Shown here in pieces: positions 40,569-52,992 of a stretch of DNA of 64,000 nucleotides. The DNA comes from Thiogranum sp. (lineage in GTDB: Bacteria > Pseudomonadota > Gammaproteobacteria > DSM-19610). Where the stretch lies: contig JASBSS010000001.1 in NCBI GenBank assembly GCA_030148805.1, forward strand, positions 248,001 through 312,000. The letters are read 5' to 3'. Below the pieces are notes generated by a model. The model did no database searches. It was not told the DNA's origin and saw only the letters and a program-made list of their open reading frames with translations. The position numbers were made by a program, and so were the translations under genes. The stretch's first letter is position 1; every line of letters starts with the position of its first letter.

Positions 40569-41166
40569 GGGGCTGCCTCCTGCGCGAGCCGCGGAGGTGA
40601 ACACCCCAGGGGTCGCCGCGCGTCTGGTTTATGAGACTGCTTCGTGGTAGGGACTAAGAGATCGTAAGGCGCCAGAATATTCGATACGTTCCTGGGCCAG
40701 GCCAGTAAGGGTCCTTGCGCCGATCGCCTAAAACCACCGGAGCCCGAAGACAACCCCCGGTTTTGCTTGATGTTGCCATGTCGTCTCCGTTCCGGCCGCC
40801 ACCCCGACGGACGTCGCTCCGGGGGCGCCCGCGGGCGTGGGGGGATGGGGAAACTCAGGCGAATCTGCGGTTGCGAATATAGGGCGCCCCGCGGGCGCTG
40901 GGGGCATGGGCCCGCGCCCAGCGTGCCTTTTTGGGCGTAGAGGGCGCGCCGCCGCGAGCGCGGGGAATAGATTTGAAGGTCGAAACATCCCTCCACTAGG
41001 GGGAAACATTTCCACTCTTGAGCCGGTCCGCGCGTGACGGGCCACGCCACGACGAAAAGTTAATTTTAATAATTTAATTCAACGAGTTATAGTATTAATC
41101 CAGGAGACTTACAGTTTCACCGCAGCCTTAGGGGTGGGCGTTCGTCGTATAAACCGGGGTAAAACA
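40569..41166. other. Long gap with GC hairpins and AT-rich promoter segment
   Basis: 598 bp with no supported gene. 40820-40990 carries imperfect copies of a GC-rich unit (GGGCGCC-type, ending GGGGATGGGG or GGGGCATGGG). 41060-41100 is strongly AT-rich. TATAGT at 41088-41093 could be a -10 element of the LuxR-type regulator gene at 41167. Confidence 0.35.
40896..40932 (+). terminator. Orphan hairpin with T-run
   Basis: CGCTGGG (40896-40902) pairs exactly with CCCAGCG (40917-40923) and is followed by TGCCTTTTT. The shape is that of a rho-independent terminator reading rightward, yet no rightward gene ends here. It might end a small RNA transcript. Confidence 0.4.
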
Positions 41167-41805
41167 ATGAAAATTCTCTTGATCGACGACCATGTATTGC
41201 TTCTCGAAGGGCTGGCGCTGGTCCTGCAGCGGGCCTTCCCAACGGCCGACATTCGCATCCTCGGCTCTTCGGAACAGGCCTTGGAGCGGCTGGCGGAAGA
41301 CCCCCAAGCCGACCTGGCGATCGTCGATCTGGCCATGCCGGGGATCAGCGGCGTGACCTTCATCAAGGCGCTTGAGGAACGCCGGCTGTTCATCCCCACC
41401 GTGGTGATCTCCGCGAGCGAAAAAATCACCGACGTCAGCGAAGTGATGCAAGCCGGCGCACGCGGCTTCATCCCCAAGACCCATGATGTGAACGGCATGC
41501 TCGACGGCATCCGCCGGGTGCTGGAGGGGGAAGTCTATCTGCCGCCCGAGACACGCCGGCGACTCGAGCGCCTGGAACAATCCCGTGCCGTCGACGCGAC
41601 CACCGGGCGTTCCCTGCCCATCAGTAAGCGTCAGCTGGAAGTCCTTCGTCTGGTGAAAGACGGACTGTCCAACAAACAAATCGCCCGCGTCTTGAATATC
41701 TCCGAAAGTACGATCAAATCCCATATGGGTGCGCTGCTCGACGTCACTGGCGCCAAAAACCGCACGGAGTGTATCGTGCGGGCGGAAGCTCTAGGGATTT
41801 TCTGA
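41167..41805 (+). CDS. LuxR/NarL-family response regulator
   Basis: Response regulator of 212 residues. The receiver has KILLIDDHVLLLEGL and phospho-acceptor Asp54 in IVDLAMPGISG. The C-terminal HTH (about 150-212) reads KRQLEVLRLVKDGLSNKQIA then STIKSHMGALL. The start at 41167 fits the receiver beginning; the frame to 41134 is extra. It converges with the hybrid kinase at 41791 and their 3' ends overlap by 15 bp, so antisense effects are possible. This kinase, or the paralogue at 55481, is the natural partner. Confidence 0.92.
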   Translation: MKILLIDDHVLLLEGLALVLQRAFPTADIRILGSSEQALERLAEDPQADLAIVDLAMPGISGVTFIKALEERRLFIPTVVISASEKITDVSEVMQAGARGFIPKTHDVNGMLDGIRRVLEGEVYLPPETRRRLERLEQSRAVDATTGRSLPISKRQLEVLRLVKDGLSNKQIARVLNISESTIKSHMGALLDVTGAKNRTECIVRAEALGIF

Positions 41806-43560
41806 ACCTGCCCCCGTCAACGCGCGCTCCAGGGCCATGCGCAGTTGCGCGGCCCGAACCGGCTTGTAGAGATGCAGGTACTGGCTGCGCGAGGCATGGC
41901 GGATACGCGTTTGGGTGGTATCGCCGGTGATCAAAATAGCGGGTATCGCGCGGGCCAGCCGCCGCCGTATCTCGCCGATGGCCTCCTCGCCGGTCACGCC
42001 ACCGCGCAGATGGAAGTCGAACACCAGAATATCGGGCGGACTTGATTGCTGTCTCAGCAGCCGTTGCGCGGCCGCAAGAGAGTCGGCGGCCCACACCTGG
42101 GCTCCCCAGTTGCGCAACAGCGCCTCCATCGCGGCCAGGATTTCCGGCTCGTCGTCGACCACCAGGACACATTTCCCCTCCAGCCTGTTGACCCACTGCG
42201 AACTCCAGGGTTTTGGCACCGCGGGAACGCTGGCCGGGTCCCCCAACGGCACCTTCAGGCTGAACCGCGACCCCGTGCCAGGCTGCGAGTCCAGCTGCAG
42301 TTCCAGTTGCAGCAAGGTCGCCAAGCGTTTCACGATCGACAAGCCCAAACCCAGCCCCGGACTACCGTCGCGCTTGGCATCCTCCAGACGGCTGAACTCT
42401 TCGAAAATCTTTTCGTGCGCACTAGGCGGAATGCCGCTGCCACTGTCGCTCACCGTCAACAAGGCATGTCTTCCCTGCCTTAGCAGCTCCACCTCCACCA
42501 CCCCACCCGAGGCGGTGTATTTGATCGCGTTGGACAGCAGATTGCGCACAATGCGCTCCAACAGCATCGGATCACTATATAGGGTGAGAGAGGTATCCGG
42601 AATTCTCAGTCTCAGACCTTTTTGCTCGGCCAGCGGCGCGAACACAGTGTGCAACAGTTGCAGCAGATTTTGCGACGAAAACGACTGTTTATCGATCTCG
42701 ATGACCCCGGCGTCCAGCTTGGAGACATCGAGCAGCGAATCGAACAACGTGCGCAGACTGGACAAGCACGCCAGAATGCTGCCGAGTATCGACTTTCTCT
42801 TGTCCTCGCCCTGTTCCTGCTCCAACCCGGCAACCAGAAGCCCGAGCGCATGCAGCGGTTGTCTCAAGTCATGGCTGGCGGTGGCGAAAAAGCGCGATTT
42901 TGCCTCGCCTGCCTGCACCAGCGCATTCTTCTGCTGAGTCAGATCGCTGACCAATGCGAGATTTTCAAAACGCAAGCGGAAGGAGTCCAGGAACGCCCTG
43001 TTGATCAGTCGCGAGTAGATGCACAGATAGAGCATGAACAGCAATCCCATGACGCCAAGCGTCAGGTGGACATCATCGCTCTGACTGAGAAAACGCAGCA
43101 CGATCGGGGTCATCAACGAAATGAAGAACAGCATAAACGCACCCAGATGCACGGAATAAGTGGCGATGGACCCGGCCCCCATGCCGACCAGGACCGTCGC
43201 CATAAAGACATCGTGGATAATGGTATTCGGGCTCTGTAGCAGCACGCCCGCCGCACCCCAGCTGATGCCTCCCAGAAACACCCCGATGAGGAAGTCCCGT
43301 TCGCTGCGGCGAAATTCCGCGCTATACGCGCTGCACCGCCGGTAGCGGACCAGCCAGGCACCACGCAGCAGGATCACGCTGAGCATCGCCCCGCCCCAGA
43401 CGAGAAGCGACTGCCTGTCTGCCACGGATCGCATCACCAGGAACACCAACAGCCCGTTGAGGGCGGTGGCGACCAGCGCCACGGGCATGTGCGCCACCAG
43501 CGTATCGAGCTGCATCGCCTTGATACGATCGTCTATCGGTTGTTTTTCTTCCGGACCCAC
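41791..43560 (-). CDS. Membrane hybrid sensor histidine kinase
   Basis: Kinase of 589 residues. The N-terminal half carries about five or six membrane helices (residues 25-185, such as LVATALNGLLVFLVM, FLIGVFLGGISWGAAGVLL and LGVMGLLFMLYLCIYS) without a large sensor loop. A coiled coil leads to HisKA with ATASHDLRQPLHALGL, then HATPase (NLLSNAIKYTASGG, DSGSGIPP, PGLGLGLSIVKRLA), then a C-terminal receiver (CVLVVDDEPEI, ILVFDFHLRGGVTGEE, LHLYKPV). The motif SHDLRQPLH and the layout match the kinase at 55481. It follows apbE by 116 bp on the same strand. Start GTG 43560. Confidence 0.9.
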   Translation of the reverse strand: MGPEEKQPIDDRIKAMQLDTLVAHMPVALVATALNGLLVFLVMRSVADRQSLLVWGGAMLSVILLRGAWLVRYRRCSAYSAEFRRSERDFLIGVFLGGISWGAAGVLLQSPNTIIHDVFMATVLVGMGAGSIATYSVHLGAFMLFFISLMTPIVLRFLSQSDDVHLTLGVMGLLFMLYLCIYSRLINRAFLDSFRLRFENLALVSDLTQQKNALVQAGEAKSRFFATASHDLRQPLHALGLLVAGLEQEQGEDKRKSILGSILACLSSLRTLFDSLLDVSKLDAGVIEIDKQSFSSQNLLQLLHTVFAPLAEQKGLRLRIPDTSLTLYSDPMLLERIVRNLLSNAIKYTASGGVVEVELLRQGRHALLTVSDSGSGIPPSAHEKIFEEFSRLEDAKRDGSPGLGLGLSIVKRLATLLQLELQLDSQPGTGSRFSLKVPLGDPASVPAVPKPWSSQWVNRLEGKCVLVVDDEPEILAAMEALLRNWGAQVWAADSLAAAQRLLRQQSSPPDILVFDFHLRGGVTGEEAIGEIRRRLARAIPAILITGDTTQTRIRHASRSQYLHLYKPVRAAQLRMALERALTGAGSENP

Positions 43561-43675: not shown

Positions 43676-44662
43676 TCAGCGCAAATGTGACTGCGGCTGC
43701 GCCGTGTCGATACCCGCCCCCTCGGGGCGGCCGGCCTCTCCCCTGAGCGGTGGCAACGAACCGCCGACTTGCCCCTCGCGGTCCATCCATACGTGCGGCA
43801 AACCCAGGCCTTCGAGCCATTCCGGGCCCGCCCCCTCCTTGAGGATGCTGATAGTGGTCGCGCTGCCGGCGACCACGCATTGCTCGGCCACGACGCTCAC
43901 GCCGCGCATGCCCAGCACCGGCCAACCGGTCTCGGGCGAGAGGATATGGTTATAACGCTGCCCCTCGATTTCGACATAGCGTTCATAATCGCCACTGCTG
44001 GCGACCGCGCCCGAGTGGAGCTCGACCACCGCCAGCAGTTCGTCGGCGAGGCGTGGGTGCTGCACCCCGACCCGCCAGGCCCGGCCATCCGGATGCGGGC
44101 CAATGATCTTGATGTCACCGCCCAGGTCCACCAGACCGCTGTCGACACCCAGCTCCCGGCAGATGGTGGCGGCGCGATCGACGGCGTATTCCTTACCAAG
44201 ACCACCGAAGTCCAATTCCATGCCCCGGCGGGCGAAACGCAACTGGTTCTTGTCCCAGTCCACGTAAGGCCAGCCGATTCGTCGCTTCAGCTCCAGGATA
44301 TCGCCTTTCTCGGGGAGACCTGCACTGTCGAAGTTCCACAGCTGGCGCAACACACCGGAGGTGATATCGAACAACCCGTCGCTCTGTTCGTAGCAAACCT
44401 GAGCGTAGTTCAACAGGGCGAAAGTCTCGCTGTCTATCTCCACCACTCCGCCCTCGGCTCCGGCTCGATTGATGGCGCTGGTGACACTGTCGTCGCGATA
44501 GCGGGAATACTTGCGCTCGATGCGCCGCACGTCGGCAATGGCAGCCTGGGCGGCACGGGTCGCGACGGACCTGTCCGCGTACAAATACACCGCGCAAGGC
44601 GAGCCCATGGCCTTGAAACGCCGCACCAAAGTCCGCGCCCGCCCGGGCACTAGAACTTCCAT
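43676..44662 (-). CDS. apbE: ApbE-family FAD:protein FMN transferase
   Basis: Flavin transferase of 328 residues that moves FMN from FAD to Thr/Ser of target proteins. Characteristic motifs are RRFKAMGSPCAVYLY, YSRYRDDSVTSAINRA, DGLFDITSGVLRQLW, ELDFGGLGKEYAVDRA, LVDLGGDIKIIGPHPDGRAW and HILSPETGWPV; the metal-site Asp/Thr region near the end is present (VVAGSATTISILK). No signal peptide or lipobox is visible, unlike many ApbE proteins, so its compartment is unclear. It overlaps the DUF3570 gene by 13 bp. Confidence 0.94.
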   Translation of the reverse strand: MEVLVPGRARTLVRRFKAMGSPCAVYLYADRSVATRAAQAAIADVRRIERKYSRYRDDSVTSAINRAGAEGGVVEIDSETFALLNYAQVCYEQSDGLFDITSGVLRQLWNFDSAGLPEKGDILELKRRIGWPYVDWDKNQLRFARRGMELDFGGLGKEYAVDRAATICRELGVDSGLVDLGGDIKIIGPHPDGRAWRVGVQHPRLADELLAVVELHSGAVASSGDYERYVEIEGQRYNHILSPETGWPVLGMRGVSVVAEQCVVAGSATTISILKEGAGPEWLEGLGLPHVWMDREGQVGGSLPPLRGEAGRPEGAGIDTAQPQSHLR

Positions 44663-45825
44663 TCAAGGGTTATGCGATAGACGACAAATTGATAATTCTC
44701 GATGCTCGCTCCGCGACCGCCGTTGAGTCTGCGACTGTACTTTCTGTCGTAGTATTCCACTCCGGCGTCCACCACCCCTGAGGATCCGAAGCTCTTGCCA
44801 ACCGTCAGATCCCAACTCAGGGCGCCGAAGGCGGCCAGTCGGTAGTCGCTGGACTGCAAACCGTCTCCCGGCGCGGCGTTGAAGTAGATGCGATAGAAAT
44901 CCGCATCGCTCTGACTGTAGTAGCGCACCCGCGGTTTGACGTGCCAACCTCTTCCCAGCGCCTTGTCGAGGGAGGTTTCAAAGGTATGGGCCTGGATTCC
45001 CCAATCATCGGTGCTGTAGCGGTAGTCGAACTGAAAAGCCGCGGACAGGTTTCTCAGATAGCGTTTGTAACGCCCCAGCATCGCCCACTGGTCACGGTCC
45101 TCGGGCCGCGCATCGGCGCGCACGCCCGTGCCGCTGATAAACACCCGCTTGTAGGGGTCGGAGAGAAACCCTTCGCTTTTCGTATAACCGAGGTTGACCT
45201 GCAACAGACTGGTGGCATCCAGGACCTGGGTCCACCCCAGCAGATACTCCTGGCGGCGTTTCTTGCCGCCGACGTCGCTACGCAACGCGCTGCCCACGTC
45301 GTCGTCGGAATAACTGAATCCGGCCTCCAACGTCGAGTTCCTGTTGTTCAGATCCTGACGCACGTTCAGACTGAAATAATTCGAATCGTAGTCGTCCTCG
45401 TCCGACGTACCGACGCGCGCGCCCACGGTGGTATCGCCAAGGTAGTAGTTCAGCCCCCCCGCCAGCGCCTTGCGCGTGTCGTGGATGGTGGTCGCCCGGG
45501 TGATTACCTGCACCGGATTACCGTCGGCGTCCGGTCGATTGAAAACCGGAGTCGCGCCGGTCATGATATCGCGGGTGGCGTCGATGCGGGCATCGAAGCG
45601 GCTACCCAACGGAAACGCCAGCGACAGCTGGTCCACCTGCACCCGCATGCGATTGTCGCTTTCGTCATAACGGGCGTGACTGTACTGGAAGTCGTACTCC
45701 TGAAGGGGCGTGGCCGCCGATACCGGAGTGGAGACCCCAGGCAAGGCCAGGGCGGCGCCGACGAACGCGCTCAAACGGTCGCGATTTCGCTCAGTTGCAG
45801 CCACAACCACCCCCTCCCACGCCAT
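44650..45825 (-). CDS. DUF3570 outer-membrane beta-barrel protein
   Basis: Protein of 391 residues with a signal peptide (LSAFVGAALALPGVSTPVSA) and alternating amphipathic strands to the C-terminal Phe (YRITLEWKF), typical of an outer-membrane barrel. The DUF3570 features are QYSHARYDESDNRMRVQVDQ and TIHDTRKALAGGLNYYL. Residues 86-92 read DIMTGAT, identical in pattern to the DxxTGAT/DxxSGAT acceptor motif of ApbE. Its neighbours are apbE, a DUF4266 gene and a thioredoxin, a known conserved neighbourhood whose role is undefined. ATG 45825 overlaps the DUF4266 gene; a GTG a few codons later is possible. Confidence 0.9.
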   Translation of the reverse strand: MAWEGVVVAATERNRDRLSAFVGAALALPGVSTPVSAATPLQEYDFQYSHARYDESDNRMRVQVDQLSLAFPLGSRFDARIDATRDIMTGATPVFNRPDADGNPVQVITRATTIHDTRKALAGGLNYYLGDTTVGARVGTSDEDDYDSNYFSLNVRQDLNNRNSTLEAGFSYSDDDVGSALRSDVGGKKRRQEYLLGWTQVLDATSLLQVNLGYTKSEGFLSDPYKRVFISGTGVRADARPEDRDQWAMLGRYKRYLRNLSAAFQFDYRYSTDDWGIQAHTFETSLDKALGRGWHVKPRVRYYSQSDADFYRIYFNAAPGDGLQSSDYRLAAFGALSWDLTVGKSFGSSGVVDAGVEYYDRKYSRRLNGGRGASIENYQFVVYRITLEWKF

Positions 45826-46021
45826 AGCCGCCCGAGGCGGCCTCCTTCGAGAAATAGGTATGTTGCTTCAGCGCCGCTTCGTGCGCGTTCGGCTCTAGCG
45901 CCATGCCGCGTTTGGCCAGATAACCGCGCTCCCAGGGCTTCACCCCCGTAGTGCTGCAACCGTACTGCAACGGGATCAGCAGGCACAGCGCCGCTGCCGC
46001 CGCAAGGCGTAATCCTCTCAT
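45791..46021 (-). CDS. DUF4266 small lipoprotein with CGC end
   Basis: Protein of 76 residues with a signal and lipobox LQYGC (Cys22). The mature domain reads GVKPWERGYLAKRGMALEPN, then HTYFSKEAASGGYGVGGGGC, ending Cys-Gly-Cys-Asn. This is the DUF4266 pattern, with invariant PWERG, Lys/Arg-rich centre and the Gly-rich CGC end. The exposed Cys73/Cys75 pair could bind a metal or be a substrate of the TlpA-like thioredoxin next to it. A strong GGGAGG ribosome site precedes the start. Confidence 0.9.
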   Translation of the reverse strand: MRGLRLAAAAALCLLIPLQYGCSTTGVKPWERGYLAKRGMALEPNAHEAALKQHTYFSKEAASGGYGVGGGGCGCN

Positions 46022-46045: not shown

Positions 46046-46570
46046 CTAAGATTCTTCAATCAAGCTTCGTATGATCTGCCTGAGGCGCCCTTCCTCGCCC
46101 CGCTGAAAACCGCTGTGCCGCCAGCGCACCGTGCCGTCTTTGTCGATAAGATAGGAGGTCGGCATGGCCTGCACCCCGAAGGCCTGCGGACATGCGCCGC
46201 TGTTGTCATGGGTGACGCTGAACGCCACCGGATTGGTTTTTAGAAAACGCCGTGCCTGGGACACCTCCTGATCCAGGTTGACCGCGACGATCTCGAACCC
46301 GGAGGCACTGAACTCGGCATAGAGTCTCTGCATCACCGGGAAAGAGTGCCGGCACGGCGGGCACCAGGACGCCCAGAAGTCCACATACACCACCTTGCCG
46401 CGCAAGCTCTCGAGCGTGAGTTCGTCCTGGCCATCCAGCAATGCGCCCAGGCAGTCGGGCGCCGGCGCGGCGAGCGGCTTGGCGGCCGCCGTGCCGACAA
46501 ACGAGCTGGCCAACAGGCTGATGATCAACCCCGCGAGTAAACGCGGTTGACGCAGCCGTCGTGAGACCAT
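46046..46570 (-). CDS. TlpA-like thioredoxin, exported
   Basis: Protein of 174 residues with signal peptide (LLAGLIISLLASSFVGTAAA) and thioredoxin fold. The active site WCPPC is at Cys70/Cys73, in VYVDFWASWCPPCRHSFPVM, and the cis-Pro is in VQAMPTSYLIDKDG. It resembles TlpA/ResA reductants. It would act in the periplasm, perhaps reducing the DUF4266 cysteines or assisting maturation of the DUF3570 barrel. The start at 46570 overlaps the stop of the 2140-residue gene (TGATG), so translation is coupled; the frame to 46633 is rejected. Confidence 0.92.
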   Translation of the reverse strand: MVSRRLRQPRLLAGLIISLLASSFVGTAAAKPLAAPAPDCLGALLDGQDELTLESLRGKVVYVDFWASWCPPCRHSFPVMQRLYAEFSASGFEIVAVNLDQEVSQARRFLKTNPVAFSVTHDNSGACPQAFGVQAMPTSYLIDKDGTVRWRHSGFQRGEEGRLRQIIRSLIEES

Positions 46571-49500
46571 CAGCCTCCCCGCCGCCGACGCGCGACCGTG
46601 GCCAGTCCGATGATGCCCGAGGCGAACAACCACACCGCCGCCGGCACCGGTACCGCCGAGACCACACTCAAGCGCAGCACGTCGGTGCTGCCGAATTCAT
46701 CCAGCAGGTAGTTCACCTGCCACTGCAATCCGCCGGCCAGCAGGGCCAGGTCCAGGGTATCGAACTGACCAGACAGCGTATTGGCGGTCAGCACGTCGAA
46801 AGAATCGCCCGCCGCAGGCGAGAACGGACCGCTGCCGCTGTCGAACCAGTCGACCTTCAGCAGACCGGCGAGGCTGGCCTGACCGCTGACGTTGAGCACA
46901 TCGTATTCGCTGCCCGCCTGCAACCCGCCGATTTCCACCGAGAAGATGCCCGCGGCCGATTGCGTATAGTCGCCGCTGAGGTTGGTCGCGCCCGGCGAGT
47001 TGCCCGGGGCCAGGTCCCCGCCCTGGTTGATGAGATCGCCGATCACCGTATCGGCCGAGAGCGTGCCGCCGGTGAAGTCGAACTGATTGCCCGCCGTGCG
47101 CAGCGTGGCGGTACGCAAACGGCCCCCGCTGAGCACGAAGCTGTCGACGTCGGTTTCATTGGCCACGCTGAGCGAACCATCGGCCAGCGTCACCGCAGCG
47201 TTACCGCTTCCCTGGCGTAGACTGTCGCCAATTGTGACCGCGCCACCGTTGTCTATCCCCAGCGTGGCGCTGGCTCCGGTCCCTTCACCCAAGACCATCG
47301 ATCCCGTGGCCGACAGTGCCGATCCGGCACCGTCGACCGTCACGCCGGCCGTGGCGTTCGTCGCTCGGGCGACAGAAAATGCGCTCGCGTCAACCTGGCC
47401 GCCCGCGCTCGCGCCCAAGCTACCGTTGTTGATCTCCAGCGTGCCCAACGACCAATTCGAACCGACGCCTTCGACGCTCACCGTGCCGGTACCGTTGCCG
47501 TCAGCCCCTCCCAGGCGAGTGCTAAAACTCGTGGCCTGCGCGCCGTTGCTCAGCCGCAGGCTGCCGGACCCGGCGAGCCCGACCGCAAGCTTGCCCTCGA
47601 CGGTAAAATCAGAACCCACGCCGGCGACACTGACCGATCCGCCACTACCGTTCACGCGCCCCAGCGTAGCGCCCGAGGTGGTGACCGAGGAGCGGCTATT
47701 GATGGCCAGGACCCCCGTACCGCTACCCCCGACCACCAGCCTGTTGCTGCTCCAGCGCGAGCCGTCGTTCAGCGTGACACTGCCGTCGGTCGCCGTCGAG
47801 GCGCTCACAGCCGCCGGGTCGTCGCCGATATAGCCATTGACGCTGGACAAGTCGACGCCGCTGTTCGCCGTGAGGCGGCCGCGCCGGGATTTGGCAACGG
47901 ACAGATCGCCATTAACCTGCGCGCTGCCCCCGTTCAGCACCAGACTGGGAGCCGCCGCGGCGTCTTTGCCGTCGATGATCAAATCCGTGTTGCTGATCAA
48001 TCCACCGCTGCCAACGGTCATCAACCCGTCGCCGAAGTTGAATTGACCGCTATTGTCGAAAGCCCGGGTGGTCAAGGTGCCGCCGGCGAGATTCAGGGTG
48101 CCGCCGGCATAGATCTTCAGTCCGTTGCGCATATTGGCGGTACCACCGGACATGTTGAAGCTGGCCGAGCCACCGGCCGAGAATAGATCGCCGCCCACGT
48201 TCGTGAAGGCATTGCTGAGGAATGAATCCGCCCCCGTCAGGCTCAGTGTCGCCTGTGCGCCAGCAACACCGGCGAGGTTGGTGTACAGGTTGGACACACT
48301 GCCGCCGTTGAGGATGCTCAGACTGCCGCTGCCGCCGGCGCCTACATCCAATCGGGTATCGAGGTTCCACGCAGAACCGGCGCCGTCGACGGTCACGGTG
48401 CCGCTCGCGCCCGCCAAAGCGGCGATCTGCGCGGCATTGCCGGTGGCCTGAGCACCGCTTCTGATTCTCAACTCACCGTTGCCGGCGCGCCCCACATATA
48501 AGTCATAACCATTGGTGGCCAGTCGCGTTCCGGAGCCGCTGAGACTGATCAGACCGCGGCCGCCTGCGGCATTGCCTATGGCGGTGTCACCGTCAGCGTT
48601 CACCGTGGCACCGCTGCTGGCACTCAGGCTGCCGGTGCCGGCGTCGCCCACCGTCCAGCCGCTGCTGGTGGCGGTAGTGGTCGGTCCGCTGAGACTCAGC
48701 GTACCGATACTGCCGGCATCGTAGCCCAGGTTGACGAGATTGCTGCTCAGACTGGAGCCGGAACTGGCCACAATTCGACCGACGCCACCCGAGGTTCCCG
48801 CGTACAGGTCGCCGCTTATCGTGGCGGCAGTATTGGCCAGTGTCAGAGTTGGGTTGTTGCCCCGCACCAGACCGGCAATCACCAGGGCGCTGTTGGCGGT
48901 GTCGAACACACCGCCGCTAGTCGTTCCACCACCCGAGCCAAAGCTGCCGTTGGTCACAAACAGGTTGCCATTGTGCAATCGCAGTTTGCCGGCGTTGTCC
49001 ACCGTCTGCGCCCGGATGTTGCCGCCGGACAAGTTCACCTCACCGGCGTCCCAGATTTTCAGCATCTGCGCGATGTCGGCTTCGGCACCGTTGCTCACGG
49101 CGAGACTGGCGGAACCACTGGCGCCGCTGACATAGCCACCCACATAGGCGTTGTCACTGGCGAACACCGACCCCCCGCCGTCGACACTCGCAACACTACC
49201 CCCGCCCAGGTTGATCGTGGGGCTCGACAGACGTGCGCCTCCGGTCACGTTCAGCCCACCGTTCGAAAGGCTCCATGCGCCGCTGTTGAGCCAACGCGAT
49301 GCCGTACCGCTGATGGATAGCGTCGTGGCCTTCAATCCCACAGCGAAGTTCGTGCTACGCACCAGCCCGCCGTTGGTCACCTGGACGTCGACTTGACCCG
49401 TGTACCTGCCCGATTGGATATCGCCGGTCGTCCAGTCGGCGTTGTCGACCAGCACCTTGGCCTGAGTCTTGTTGCCATTGCTCAGGTAGACCTTCCCGCT

Positions 49501-52500
49501 GGTGACAGCGGCACCATTGGTGATGCTGAGGCTACCCGAGGTGAGCGTATCCGACGCGGACGGACTGGTGTCGCGGCGGCCGATAGACAAATTTCCGCTC
49601 TCCCAGCTTGAACCAGCGCCGTCCACGTTGACGCGCGCATCGGCGCTCAAATAAACCGTTCGCGTCGGCAGCACCAGCGTGGCGACCTGGCCGATGCTGG
49701 CCGACCCGGTGGTCAGGGTGGCGCCGGCGCTGAGATCGACGTCGGATAGTCCATAAAGCGTCAGATTGGCGGCCCTACCGGTCGCGCCCCTCAGCGCCAG
49801 CGTCGCGAGCGAACCGCCAGCGCGCGGATTGAGCTGTATCGATCCCGCGTTAAGGTTGCCACTGTCGACGGCCAACAGCCCTTTGTAGATTTCCAAGGCA
49901 CCGGAGGTACTGTCCAGGCTGTCGGTGGTCAAGGTACCGCCGTCGATGATCAGACGGCCATCTGTGTACAGCTTGGTCAGCCCGCCGACGGTGGTACTGC
50001 CGCCCGGCAGATAGACCATGCCGTTACCACCGGCGCCCGTCGCGCTGCCGCCGATGTACAAACCGGCGTTGCTGTTCAGCGCGCCCGAATACACCGTCAG
50101 CTCGCCCCACCCCCCGGAGTCGCGCCCCAGATCGACGTTGCTGGTGGAGAGGCTGCCACCGTCTATGGTCAGCTTGCCGAAGCCTCCGCGCCCGACAACC
50201 AAGTTATTCGCGTTCAGACTGGAACCCGTGCCACTGAGGGCAAGCGTACCCGCGGAACCGGCCAGCGTACCCAAGGTGCTGTCCGTGGCGCTCACCGCTG
50301 CCCCGTTGCCGATATTCAATGTCCCGTTGCCGCTACGGCCGACGAACAGATTGCCGCTCAGGTTCCAGCTAGAGCCCGCGCCATCTACGGACACGTTGCC
50401 GTTCGCGCCGCTACCCAGCGCAACAAAACCGCTGGTGCTGTTCAGCACGGAGCCATTGCGCAGATTGAGGTTCGCCTGCCGGTCAAAGCCAACATAAGCG
50501 GTGCCGGTTGGCGAGGCCGTGCTGTTGTCCAGGGTCAGCGTCGGCGCGTCGCCGGCGGCCGCGCCGTCGACGATCAGCCTGCTGTCCGGTGTGTTATAGC
50601 TGCCGTTGACGATCTGCAGCAGACCATCGTTGAAGTTGAAGGTGCCGGCATTATCAAACAGACGCGTGGTCACGCTGCCACCGGCCAGGTTCAGCGTGCC
50701 GCCGTTCCAGATTTTCAGCGAGGTGCCCGCCGTCACCGCGGCAGCGTCGTTGACGCTCAGCGTGGCCGCGCCGCCGGCAGCCGACGACCCGCCTCCCAGA
50801 TACAAGCCGCCGCTGGCGTTCAAACTGCCACCGCTCAGTGAAACGTTCGCCGTCGCCCCCGGCTTGAACGCCAGTAAGACATTGCCGGCATCCAGGCTGC
50901 CGCCGTTGTCGATACTCGCCGTGGCGTCGCCTTCGTAGCCGAAGTAGAGGGTGTTGTCGATGGCAAACCGCGAACCGGCGCCGCTGACGTTCAGCCCGCC
51001 GCTGGAACCGGCGAAGCGGCCCAGGTAGCCGACCAGGCCCGTGACCACCCCGCCGTTGCGCACTTGCAGCGAAGCGCCACCGTTATAGCCCAGATAAAGC
51101 GAGCCGCTGTTGGTCCAAGCCGCGTTGTCCACGGTGACGTTGCCGACGCCGGTCGACTGGTTGCCGACAAACGCGCTGCGGCTGTTCATCTGCGCGCCGT
51201 CGCTCAAGTCGACCGTCGCGCTACCGCCGTTGCCCACGTACAGCGTCGAGCTGTTGTCCCAGCGCGAACCGGCGCCGCTGACAGCGACGTTGCCGGTGGC
51301 GGCGGCACCGCTGGCGACGTAGCCGGTGGCGTTGCTGACCTGGCCGCCGTTGCTGATCGTCAGCGCTCCGTTGCCCAGGCTGCCGACGAACAGACTGCTG
51401 CTGTTGCTCCAGTGCGAACCGGCACCGTCGACCGTCGCCGTACCCGCGGCGCTGCTACCACGCCCGATGTACCCCGAGGTGTCGCTCAAGGTCGCGCCAT
51501 TGCTCAAGCGCAGGCCGCCCTGGCTGGATTGGCCAACATTCACGGTGGCGATTGCGGCGCTACTGTTGTCCAGGGCGAGCGTCGGCGTGTCGCCAGCGGC
51601 TGCGCCATTGAGACTGAAGGTACTGCCGGTGGTGCTGAATCTACCGTCGATCACCTGCAACAGTCCGTCGCTGAAATTAAAGCCGCCCGCGTTGTCGAAT
51701 ACGCTCGTGGTCAGCGTGCCGCCGGCCAGGTTCAGCGTGCCACCACTCCAGATCTTCAGCGTCGAGCCAGACGCCACGTTAGCGCCGGGATTTACAGTCA
51801 GGGTACCGGAGCCACCGGCGGCGAGCGGATCGCCACCCAGGTAGATCTGCGCCGCGCTCAAACGTCCATCGCCAACCGTGACCTGCCCGCTGCCTCCGTT
51901 TTGCTGGCCTACAAACATTGAGTTGTTTATGACAACTGATCCGGTGTCGGCGACGGACAGCGCACCGGTCCCTCTGGCGCCTACACTCAAATAGCTACCC
52001 ATCAAGGTACCGCCGCTGGAGACATCCACAGTGCCACGGCCGCCGGTGAAAACACCAATGCTGACTTGACCGCCGGAGACCGTGCCTTCGGAAATCGAGA
52101 GGGTGCCGGTCCCCCCCCGACCGACGTCGAGGCCATCGCTGGTAAAACTGCCACCACCGGTTGAGAACCTGACGTCGCCATTGCCGCCTGCGCGCGCTCC
52201 GACAGCGACCCCACCGTTGACCGTGGCCGACGCGCCGTAGCTGATTTCGAAAAGACCGGTGCCGGCATCACCAACTATCAAGGCTTTGCTGACGAAACCT
52301 CCCCCGCTTCCAGCCACAAGCAGTTCGCCTCGAGATCCCGAATCCTCGCCGAGATCCGCGACTCCCGCGTTCACAACGGCGTTAGCTGTCTCGTCGCCCA
52401 CGACAACCATCTGTGCAGTGCCCTGACGGCCAAGCGTTAGGAAATTGCCTACCGATAAACTACCGCCTGAACGCACCGAGTAGGAACCTTCCGAACCGGC

Positions 52501-52992
52501 AGCGTTACCCACGATCAGGGTATCGCTGACCCGGTGCTCGGGCCTGGCCCCGGCGTAAGCTCGCCCACCTTCCACCCGAACGCTCCCACGGCCGGCGTCG
52601 CCAACGATTTCATTAATCGCCGTGAATACGTTAGTCGCCTGATCAAAAAGAGTCGAGAAACCGAAGCGGGAGGTCGAGTCGACAGACAAACTGTTCAGGC
52701 TGATCGAAAAGGGGTCTCCGGAAGAAAACGAATATTGCACATTAACACCGGAGGAGCTGCCCTGGTCGTGCAAAAAAACGTCATCGCCGTTCCGCGGCTG
52801 CAAGGTGGTGCTGGCGGCACCACCCGGCGTAGCGGTCCAGCAAGCAGTAGTCCAGTCGATATACTGAGAGCTACTGCAGTCGGCGTCCGACCAATAAATG
52901 TTGGTGGCTTGTACCGGAAACCAGGGAGCCAATAAGAGAACAGCCCCCGCACAGCCACACCGGTACTGTCGTTCTTTACGTTTATTATGCAT
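46570..52992 (-). CDS. Giant surface repeat protein with VPLPA/PEP-CTERM-type sorting signal
   Basis: Protein of 2140 residues with N-terminal signal (CAGAVLLLAPWFPVQA). It contains dozens of short beta-strand repeats of autotransporter type, e.g. LSISNGGTVS..., GNVSVDGAGSSWNLSGNLFV and similar VDGAGS units. A longer unit with LKIW-GGTLNLAGGTLTT, FDNAG-FNF-DGLL recurs five times, about every 0.9-1.05 kb (near 48.07, 49.02, 49.93, 50.67 and 51.71 kb). There is no autotransporter barrel. The C-terminus VPVPAAVWLFASGIIGLATV plus ARRRRGG is a VPLPA/PEP-CTERM-like signal, removed by an exosortase-type enzyme and anchored via the envelope. An adhesin or biofilm role is likely. It is the first gene of the TlpA-DUF4266-DUF3570-ApbE operon. 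Confidence 0.88.
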   Translation of the reverse strand: MHNKRKERQYRCGCAGAVLLLAPWFPVQATNIYWSDADCSSSQYIDWTTACWTATPGGAASTTLQPRNGDDVFLHDQGSSSGVNVQYSFSSGDPFSISLNSLSVDSTSRFGFSTLFDQATNVFTAINEIVGDAGRGSVRVEGGRAYAGARPEHRVSDTLIVGNAAGSEGSYSVRSGGSLSVGNFLTLGRQGTAQMVVVGDETANAVVNAGVADLGEDSGSRGELLVAGSGGGFVSKALIVGDAGTGLFEISYGASATVNGGVAVGARAGGNGDVRFSTGGGSFTSDGLDVGRGGTGTLSISEGTVSGGQVSIGVFTGGRGTVDVSSGGTLMGSYLSVGARGTGALSVADTGSVVINNSMFVGQQNGGSGQVTVGDGRLSAAQIYLGGDPLAAGGSGTLTVNPGANVASGSTLKIWSGGTLNLAGGTLTTSVFDNAGGFNFSDGLLQVIDGRFSTTGSTFSLNGAAAGDTPTLALDNSSAAIATVNVGQSSQGGLRLSNGATLSDTSGYIGRGSSAAGTATVDGAGSHWSNSSSLFVGSLGNGALTISNGGQVSNATGYVASGAAATGNVAVSGAGSRWDNSSTLYVGNGGSATVDLSDGAQMNSRSAFVGNQSTGVGNVTVDNAAWTNSGSLYLGYNGGASLQVRNGGVVTGLVGYLGRFAGSSGGLNVSGAGSRFAIDNTLYFGYEGDATASIDNGGSLDAGNVLLAFKPGATANVSLSGGSLNASGGLYLGGGSSAAGGAATLSVNDAAAVTAGTSLKIWNGGTLNLAGGSVTTRLFDNAGTFNFNDGLLQIVNGSYNTPDSRLIVDGAAAGDAPTLTLDNSTASPTGTAYVGFDRQANLNLRNGSVLNSTSGFVALGSGANGNVSVDGAGSSWNLSGNLFVGRSGNGTLNIGNGAAVSATDSTLGTLAGSAGTLALSGTGSSLNANNLVVGRGGFGKLTIDGGSLSTSNVDLGRDSGGWGELTVYSGALNSNAGLYIGGSATGAGGNGMVYLPGGSTTVGGLTKLYTDGRLIIDGGTLTTDSLDSTSGALEIYKGLLAVDSGNLNAGSIQLNPRAGGSLATLALRGATGRAANLTLYGLSDVDLSAGATLTTGSASIGQVATLVLPTRTVYLSADARVNVDGAGSSWESGNLSIGRRDTSPSASDTLTSGSLSITNGAAVTSGKVYLSNGNKTQAKVLVDNADWTTGDIQSGRYTGQVDVQVTNGGLVRSTNFAVGLKATTLSISGTASRWLNSGAWSLSNGGLNVTGGARLSSPTINLGGGSVASVDGGGSVFASDNAYVGGYVSGASGSASLAVSNGAEADIAQMLKIWDAGEVNLSGGNIRAQTVDNAGKLRLHNGNLFVTNGSFGSGGGTTSGGVFDTANSALVIAGLVRGNNPTLTLANTAATISGDLYAGTSGGVGRIVASSGSSLSSNLVNLGYDAGSIGTLSLSGPTTTATSSGWTVGDAGTGSLSASSGATVNADGDTAIGNAAGGRGLISLSGSGTRLATNGYDLYVGRAGNGELRIRSGAQATGNAAQIAALAGASGTVTVDGAGSAWNLDTRLDVGAGGSGSLSILNGGSVSNLYTNLAGVAGAQATLSLTGADSFLSNAFTNVGGDLFSAGGSASFNMSGGTANMRNGLKIYAGGTLNLAGGTLTTRAFDNSGQFNFGDGLMTVGSGGLISNTDLIIDGKDAAAAPSLVLNGGSAQVNGDLSVAKSRRGRLTANSGVDLSSVNGYIGDDPAAVSASTATDGSVTLNDGSRWSSNRLVVGGSGTGVLAINSRSSVTTSGATLGRVNGSGGSVSVAGVGSDFTVEGKLAVGLAGSGSLRLSNGAQATSFSTRLGGADGNGTGTVSVEGVGSNWSLGTLEINNGSLGASAGGQVDASAFSVARATNATAGVTVDGAGSALSATGSMVLGEGTGASATLGIDNGGAVTIGDSLRQGSGNAAVTLADGSLSVANETDVDSFVLSGGRLRTATLRTAGNQFDFTGGTLSADTVIGDLINQGGDLAPGNSPGATNLSGDYTQSAAGIFSVEIGGLQAGSEYDVLNVSGQASLAGLLKVDWFDSGSGPFSPAAGDSFDVLTANTLSGQFDTLDLALLAGGLQWQVNYLLDEFGSTDVLRLSVVSAVPVPAAVWLFASGIIGLATVARRRRGG
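48010..51765 (-). repeat. Five long internal repeats in the giant surface gene
   Basis: The conserved core (protein LKIW...GGTLNLAGG...TT...FDNAG) recurs near 51660-51760, 50615-50730, 49870-49985, 48965-49075 and 48015-48120. Spacing is about 0.75-1.05 kb. Copies 3 and 4 are the most diverged (LYTDGRLIIDGGTLTT, LKIWDAGEVNLSGGN). The regions between hold shorter VDGAGS-type units. They arose by internal duplication and could support length variation. Confidence 0.75.

Follow-up and report, generated by a model that had tools for sequence, protein, structure and literature searches.

How a protein destined for the outer membrane would come by a covalently bound flavin, when the ApbE encoded beside it carries no signal peptide, is the question raised by an operon in the window analyzed here (64,000 nucleotides of a Thiogranum sp. 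genome). We read this operon as serving a covalently flavinylated outer-membrane protein of the DUF3570 family, with a cytosolic ApbE flavinylating the DUF3570 precursor before Sec export and the FMN coming to lie at the extracellular mouth of the barrel, a reading that we regard as evenly balanced between right and wrong. At the level of sequence and modeled structure it is supported by the conservation of the acceptor motif, the gene order, the barrel fold, the conserved residues on the outer half of the barrel, and a clade of leaderless, Cys-rich ApbE proteins with exchanged acidic residues.

The operon lies on the minus strand and is transcribed in the order T5SS/PEP-CTERM-repeat protein (46570..52992; 2140 residues, with a VPLPA-CTERM signal), TlpA/ResA-like thiol-disulfide protein (46046..46570; signal peptide, WCPPC), DUF4266 (PF14086, E 7e-23; 45791..46021), DUF3570 (PF12094; 44650..45825) and ApbE (PF02424; 43676..44662). 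The DUF4266 protein is small and lipoprotein-like, with the C-terminal end GGGGCGCN. Gene ends within the operon overlap or stand close together: the likelier TlpA start, ATG 46570, overlaps the stop of the upstream gene as TGATG, and apbE, starting at 44662, shares 13 nt with the end of DUF3570, an overlap that the initial annotation had pointed out. DUF3570 (391 aa as listed) more probably begins at GTG 45804, which corresponds to residue 8 of the listed reading frame, with GGGAGGGGG directly before it. That no other NqrC/RnfG-like acceptor is encoded in the operon had also been claimed, rightly: FMN_bind matches occur on contigs C5 and C11 and none on the window’s own contig (C38), which rules out such an acceptor here. 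Whether the T5SS/PEP-CTERM-repeat protein is part of the redox system is uncertain; it may be a surface protein tied to the redox operon. The same neighbor is present in the sister genome G003 (locus L035). Adjoining the operon, a LuxR-type response regulator (41134-41805, plus strand) and a hybrid histidine kinase (41791-43560, minus strand) are convergent with a 15 nt overlap and might regulate it.

DUF3570 as an ApbE substrate is already established for the family (PMC8238504), and the window protein is a further member, matching PF12094 with 276 bits against a cut-off of 25 (E 5e-82) over most of the profile. Meheust et al. (2021, PMC8238504) demonstrated flavinylation of the Chlorobium luteolum DUF3570 protein by its partner ApbE, and both of its [S/T]GA[S/T] motifs must be removed to abolish flavinylation (PMC8238504). 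The proposal that DIMTGAT at residues 86-92 (45550..45570, minus strand) is a flavinylation motif holds up in the family alignment: its first [S/T]GA[S/T] element, TGAT at residues 89-92, with Thr92 as the predicted acceptor, falls on a family-wide conserved site, and the column is kept in the DUF3570 proteins that stand beside apbE. Among 57 aligned DUF3570 proteins, D/E86 is present in 57, S/T89 in 55, A91 in 50 and S/T92 in 56. Shuffles of the window protein, which reflect composition alone, yield D..[ST]GA[ST] in 0.6% and [ST]GA[ST] in 6%; a chance origin of the motif is ruled out by the family-wide conservation of the column. Past an intervening loop, the protein retains a second acceptor position in TRAT (residues 109-112; 45490..45501, minus strand), aligned with the family’s second motif but not canonical, with Arg in place of Gly. 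S/T occupies position 112 in 53 of the 57 proteins and Gly is found in the second motif of only 14, the second motif described in PMC8238504 not being obligatory for every member. DUF3570 proteins of Methylococcales and a relative (L005-L009, L012, L016-L018, L069) run to about 900 residues; some are encoded in tandem, the first motif reads GGAT or SGAT, and the motif loop carries long insertions.

Covalent FMN on the window DUF3570 is thus a prediction from its sequence, and the initial annotation’s picture of a flavinylated outer-membrane redox protein with DUF4266 and TlpA partners stands insofar as flavinylation of the family and its partners are published (PMC8238504) and the motif is kept; it is weakened where it leans on the operon’s own ApbE, a putative transferase from a class that lacks both a leader and the canonical metal-ligand Asp. 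It had also missed both the second acceptor position and the predicted location of the site at the barrel’s outer end.

The motif might instead have been kept by descent in an operon that is decaying in the genus, its product no longer flavinylated. DUF3570 occurs in 29 of 398 genomes of the phylum and 24 of 56 relatives, and only the window’s genome (G000) and G003 carry the locus among the genus members searched; no plasmid homologue was found by DNA, and by protein only two Hymenobacter plasmids matched. In G003 the DUF3570 orthologue (L035 1441-2621, G003:C91) is frame-shifted and reads SGAM, with Met at position 92, beside an intact class I apbE, and both copies have TRAT instead of the canonical second motif. 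The sister copy, the shared TRAT and the restriction of the locus to G000 and G003 speak for decay, but the frame-shift may stem from faulty assembly of a draft genome, and in the window DUF3570 and ApbE are intact, their active-site and outer-rim residues are conserved and the operon overlaps are normal, so that we consider decay quite improbable here, while noting that DUF3570 function may vary within the genus.

Where the putative flavin would reside is indicated by the structural model. The AlphaFold model of DUF3570, built with 57 sequences, has a pLDDT of 86.5, a pTM of 0.84 and 16 long strands, and the best Foldseek matches are outer-membrane barrels such as PelB, BcsC, OprD-type proteins and FadL, that is, generic barrels; a sequence search for a DUF3570 relative of solved structure found none. 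The even strand number, the short turns on one side (2-5 residues on the periplasmic side, against outer loops of up to 52), the Sec-type signal peptide and the C-terminal Phe391 are those of an outer-membrane beta-barrel. Tat export was ruled out, no Tat core being present in 117 N-termini. In known outer-membrane barrels both chain ends lie in the periplasm. With the orientation set by this general rule, DIMTGAT would sit at the upper end of strand 3, and the second site would immediately precede strand 4, the two flanking extracellular loop 91-113, although this motif loop is modeled at low confidence. Conservation follows the same geometry at its extreme: 36 of the 40 most conserved positions fall on the extracellular half, compared with 177 of 328 overall (Fisher p=2.6e-7). 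Averaged across all positions, the relation between conservation and side is weak (Spearman 0.11), so it is the extreme positions rather than the average that cluster on the outer half. They include R118, E143, D145, R244, R269, D273, W275, R301 and Q305, and in the model we read these residues as a probable flavin pocket at the outer mouth. Because the site of an inserted barrel would be beyond the reach of a periplasmic enzyme, modification would be needed before assembly, whichever ApbE acts. Consistent with such timing, the C. luteolum pair was expressed in E. coli with both proteins lacking signal peptides, and DUF3570 was found mostly in the pellet (PMC8238504); that it was flavinylated nonetheless means that a membrane-inserted barrel is not required for the modification.

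Which enzyme would act, and in which compartment, depends on the window ApbE. It belongs to the ApbE family by sequence (252 bits against PF02424) and by fold, its model matching the T-fold structures 1vrm (Z 35.8) and FmnB 7esa (Z 34.7); these likenesses make it a putative transferase. The catalytic Ser223 and His239 are invariant and correspond to FmnB S257 and H273, and Thr270 is nearly always kept in class I, the class to which this protein belongs. The metal-ligand Asp is missing: Gly266 (codon 43865..43867, minus strand) occupies the place of FmnB Asp301 and E. coli Asp280, ligands of the catalytic metal, in the window and across class I. Alanine at metal-ligand residues greatly reduced or abolished FmnB activity (PMC8906456). 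A second exchange accompanies the first, Glu158 (KEYA; codon 44189..44191, minus strand) standing where the signal-peptide class has Gly (KGYA). By our own reading of the published numbering, Gly154, four residues before, appears to match the residue that binds the metal through its backbone oxygen (FmnB Ala187, E. coli Thr166), on which basis Glu158 could take over as a replacement ligand. The lack of a visible signal peptide, which the initial annotation had entered as a caution, turns out to be the interesting part. The reading frame offers no start codon upstream of 44662, the first T-fold strand of the model begins at residue 11, and neither a signal peptide nor a lipobox was found in the N-terminus.

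ApbE proteins near DUF3570 form two classes. With leaders judged from hydrophobicity and gene spacing rather than by SignalP, a signal peptide is present in none of the 54 distinct class I genes (Glu158/Gly266) of the extended set and in 37 of 38 ApbEs with Gly158/Asp266 (the own-genome paralogue, Bacteroidota and unrelated ones). DUF3570 lies within 1.5 kb of 50 of the 54; the data set holds 55 class I rows, 51 with a nearby DUF3570, the window’s gene having been entered twice. Class I, including one Lys158 variant, forms one side of a branch with support of 100/98 that recurs in 100% of bootstrap trees, in a bootstrap that has not fully settled, and, that variant apart, Glu158 for the Gly of KGYA goes with Gly266 for Asp. 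In 58% of class I loci the T-fold begins within 75 nt of the DUF3570 stop, and in the closest case after 19 nt, a spacing that often leaves no room for a leader. Cys content separates the classes as well, at a mean of 4.9 per domain in class I versus 0.86 in leader-bearing ApbEs beside DUF3570 and 0.56 in those elsewhere (p=1e-16). Absent leaders, short spacing and abundant Cys together point to a cytosolic location, and the same spacing and Cys content, with the consistency of the class, rule out an artefact of ORF calling.

The classes also differ in the motif beside them: class I loci have a Gly-containing motif in 46 of 51 rows, with most of the remaining rows having a DUF3570 gene that is cut off, changed or long, and Gly/Asp-class loci have only [ST]SA[ST] in 15 of 21, a pairing that may reflect descent, not specificity. 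On contig C9 of the window’s genome, the paralogous DUF3570 locus has an ApbE of the Gly158/Asp266 class. Five class I ApbEs, one of them the Lys158 variant, were initially without a nearby DUF3570, and four of these have one within about 9 kb. The complete genome G053 encodes a class I ApbE (L157 8515-9564, G053:C1) with DUF3570 nowhere in the genome. Relatives show the same gene set of DUF3570, ApbE, DUF4266 and a thioredoxin-like protein; at L160 (8533-9435, G594:C12) a class I ApbE with Lys158 and Gly266, hence neither acidic residue, is separated from DUF3570 by DsbD.

Could class I enzymes be active yet reach the periplasm by an unrecognized route, as the published model of periplasmic flavinylation would have it? 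ApbE-dependent flavinylation of exported proteins is indeed described as extracytosolic (review PMC12052999; PMC8238504), but no class I protein has a leader or a hydrophobic N-terminus, most have little room for one, and about five Cys per domain, compared with fewer than one in leader-bearing ApbEs, are ill suited to an oxidizing periplasm; we give this route little credence. The loss of the metal-ligand Asp, a residue needed in FmnB (PMC8906456), speaks for another explanation, that a different, leader-bearing ApbE flavinylates DUF3570 in the periplasm ahead of barrel assembly, the class I protein being a dedicated helper without transferase activity, for example an FAD/FMN donor or a regulator. 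The genome does encode two further leader-bearing ApbEs, both with the metal-ligand Asp. On the other hand, class I has kept Ser223, His239 and nearly always Thr270, and the replacement of Gly by Glu158 goes hand in hand with the loss of Asp266, a pairing to be expected where selection maintains a functioning site; the close association with DUF3570, seen in many families, likewise indicates direct action. On balance we find a helper role unlikely.

For flavinylation by the cytosolic ApbE before export, the following course is proposed. The leaderless enzyme would remain in the cytosol, the site of FAD synthesis, and would transfer FMN to Thr92, and perhaps Thr112 too, of the still unfolded DUF3570 precursor. 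Sec would then export the flavinylated chain, which would be assembled as a 16-strand barrel in the outer membrane, leaving the FMN in the conserved pocket at its extracellular mouth. Electrons would reach the FMN from periplasmic thiol partners, namely the TlpA-like protein, the CxC tail of DUF4266 and a DsbD whose gene lies elsewhere in the genome, and the FMN would reduce some cell-surface acceptor. Catalysis by class I, the cytosolic site of action, the FMN on the window DUF3570 and the direction and target of electron transfer are what we infer from the observations above. Counted against cytosolic flavinylation are the need of FmnB for its metal-ligand residues, the two leader-bearing ApbEs that could act in the periplasm, the sister’s frame-shifted SGAM orthologue with its intact ApbE and the class I ApbE of G053 without DUF3570. 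More broadly, we suggest tentatively, as a possibility, that a proteobacterial lineage has a cytosolic ApbE whose metal site has been remodeled by two exchanges (Asp266 to Gly, Gly158 to Glu), a barrel flavinylated before Sec export and a flavin serving as a haem-free redox center on the surface. If true, a bulky covalent cofactor would be attached in the cytosol to a protein that has yet to pass through the inner membrane and fold in the outer one, contradicting the usual picture of exported proteins being flavinylated outside the cytosol; the cell surface would carry a simple haem-free redox center; and ApbE would offer a natural rearrangement of its metal site, testable by a two-residue swap.

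Among the open-licence literature searched, Meheust 2021 is the only paper to name DUF3570 and DUF4266; its clusters of DUF3570 and ApbE, termed ‘DsbD systems’, include DUF4266 and thioredoxin-like proteins, whether or not DsbD is present, and 316 of them have no linked DsbD (PMC8238504). Term searches of the main text of PMC8238504 returned no mention of a cytosolic ApbE, of a barrel or of where the sites lie with respect to the outer membrane. The window shares the families and gene set of these systems and likewise lacks a linked DsbD, the genome’s DsbD genes lying elsewhere. It differs from the tested C. luteolum pair, whose ApbE bears a signal peptide (truncated for expression) and, judged from that peptide alone, is presumably of the Gly/Asp class, in that the window ApbE is leaderless. 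The metal-site change in class I ApbE is newly found here. With NqrC/RnfG and the periplasmic ApbE (PMC4767422), the window system has in common the [ST]GA[ST]-type acceptor motif, the ApbE T-fold and the catalytic residues, but NqrC and RnfG are not outer-membrane barrels and their ApbE is periplasmic, with the Asp metal ligand kept. The Klebsiella pneumoniae cytosolic ApbE, as cited in a review (PMC12052999), is likewise without a signal peptide and flavinylates a soluble fumarate reductase; its substrate remains in the cytosol, whereas that of the window ApbE would be an exported outer-membrane barrel.
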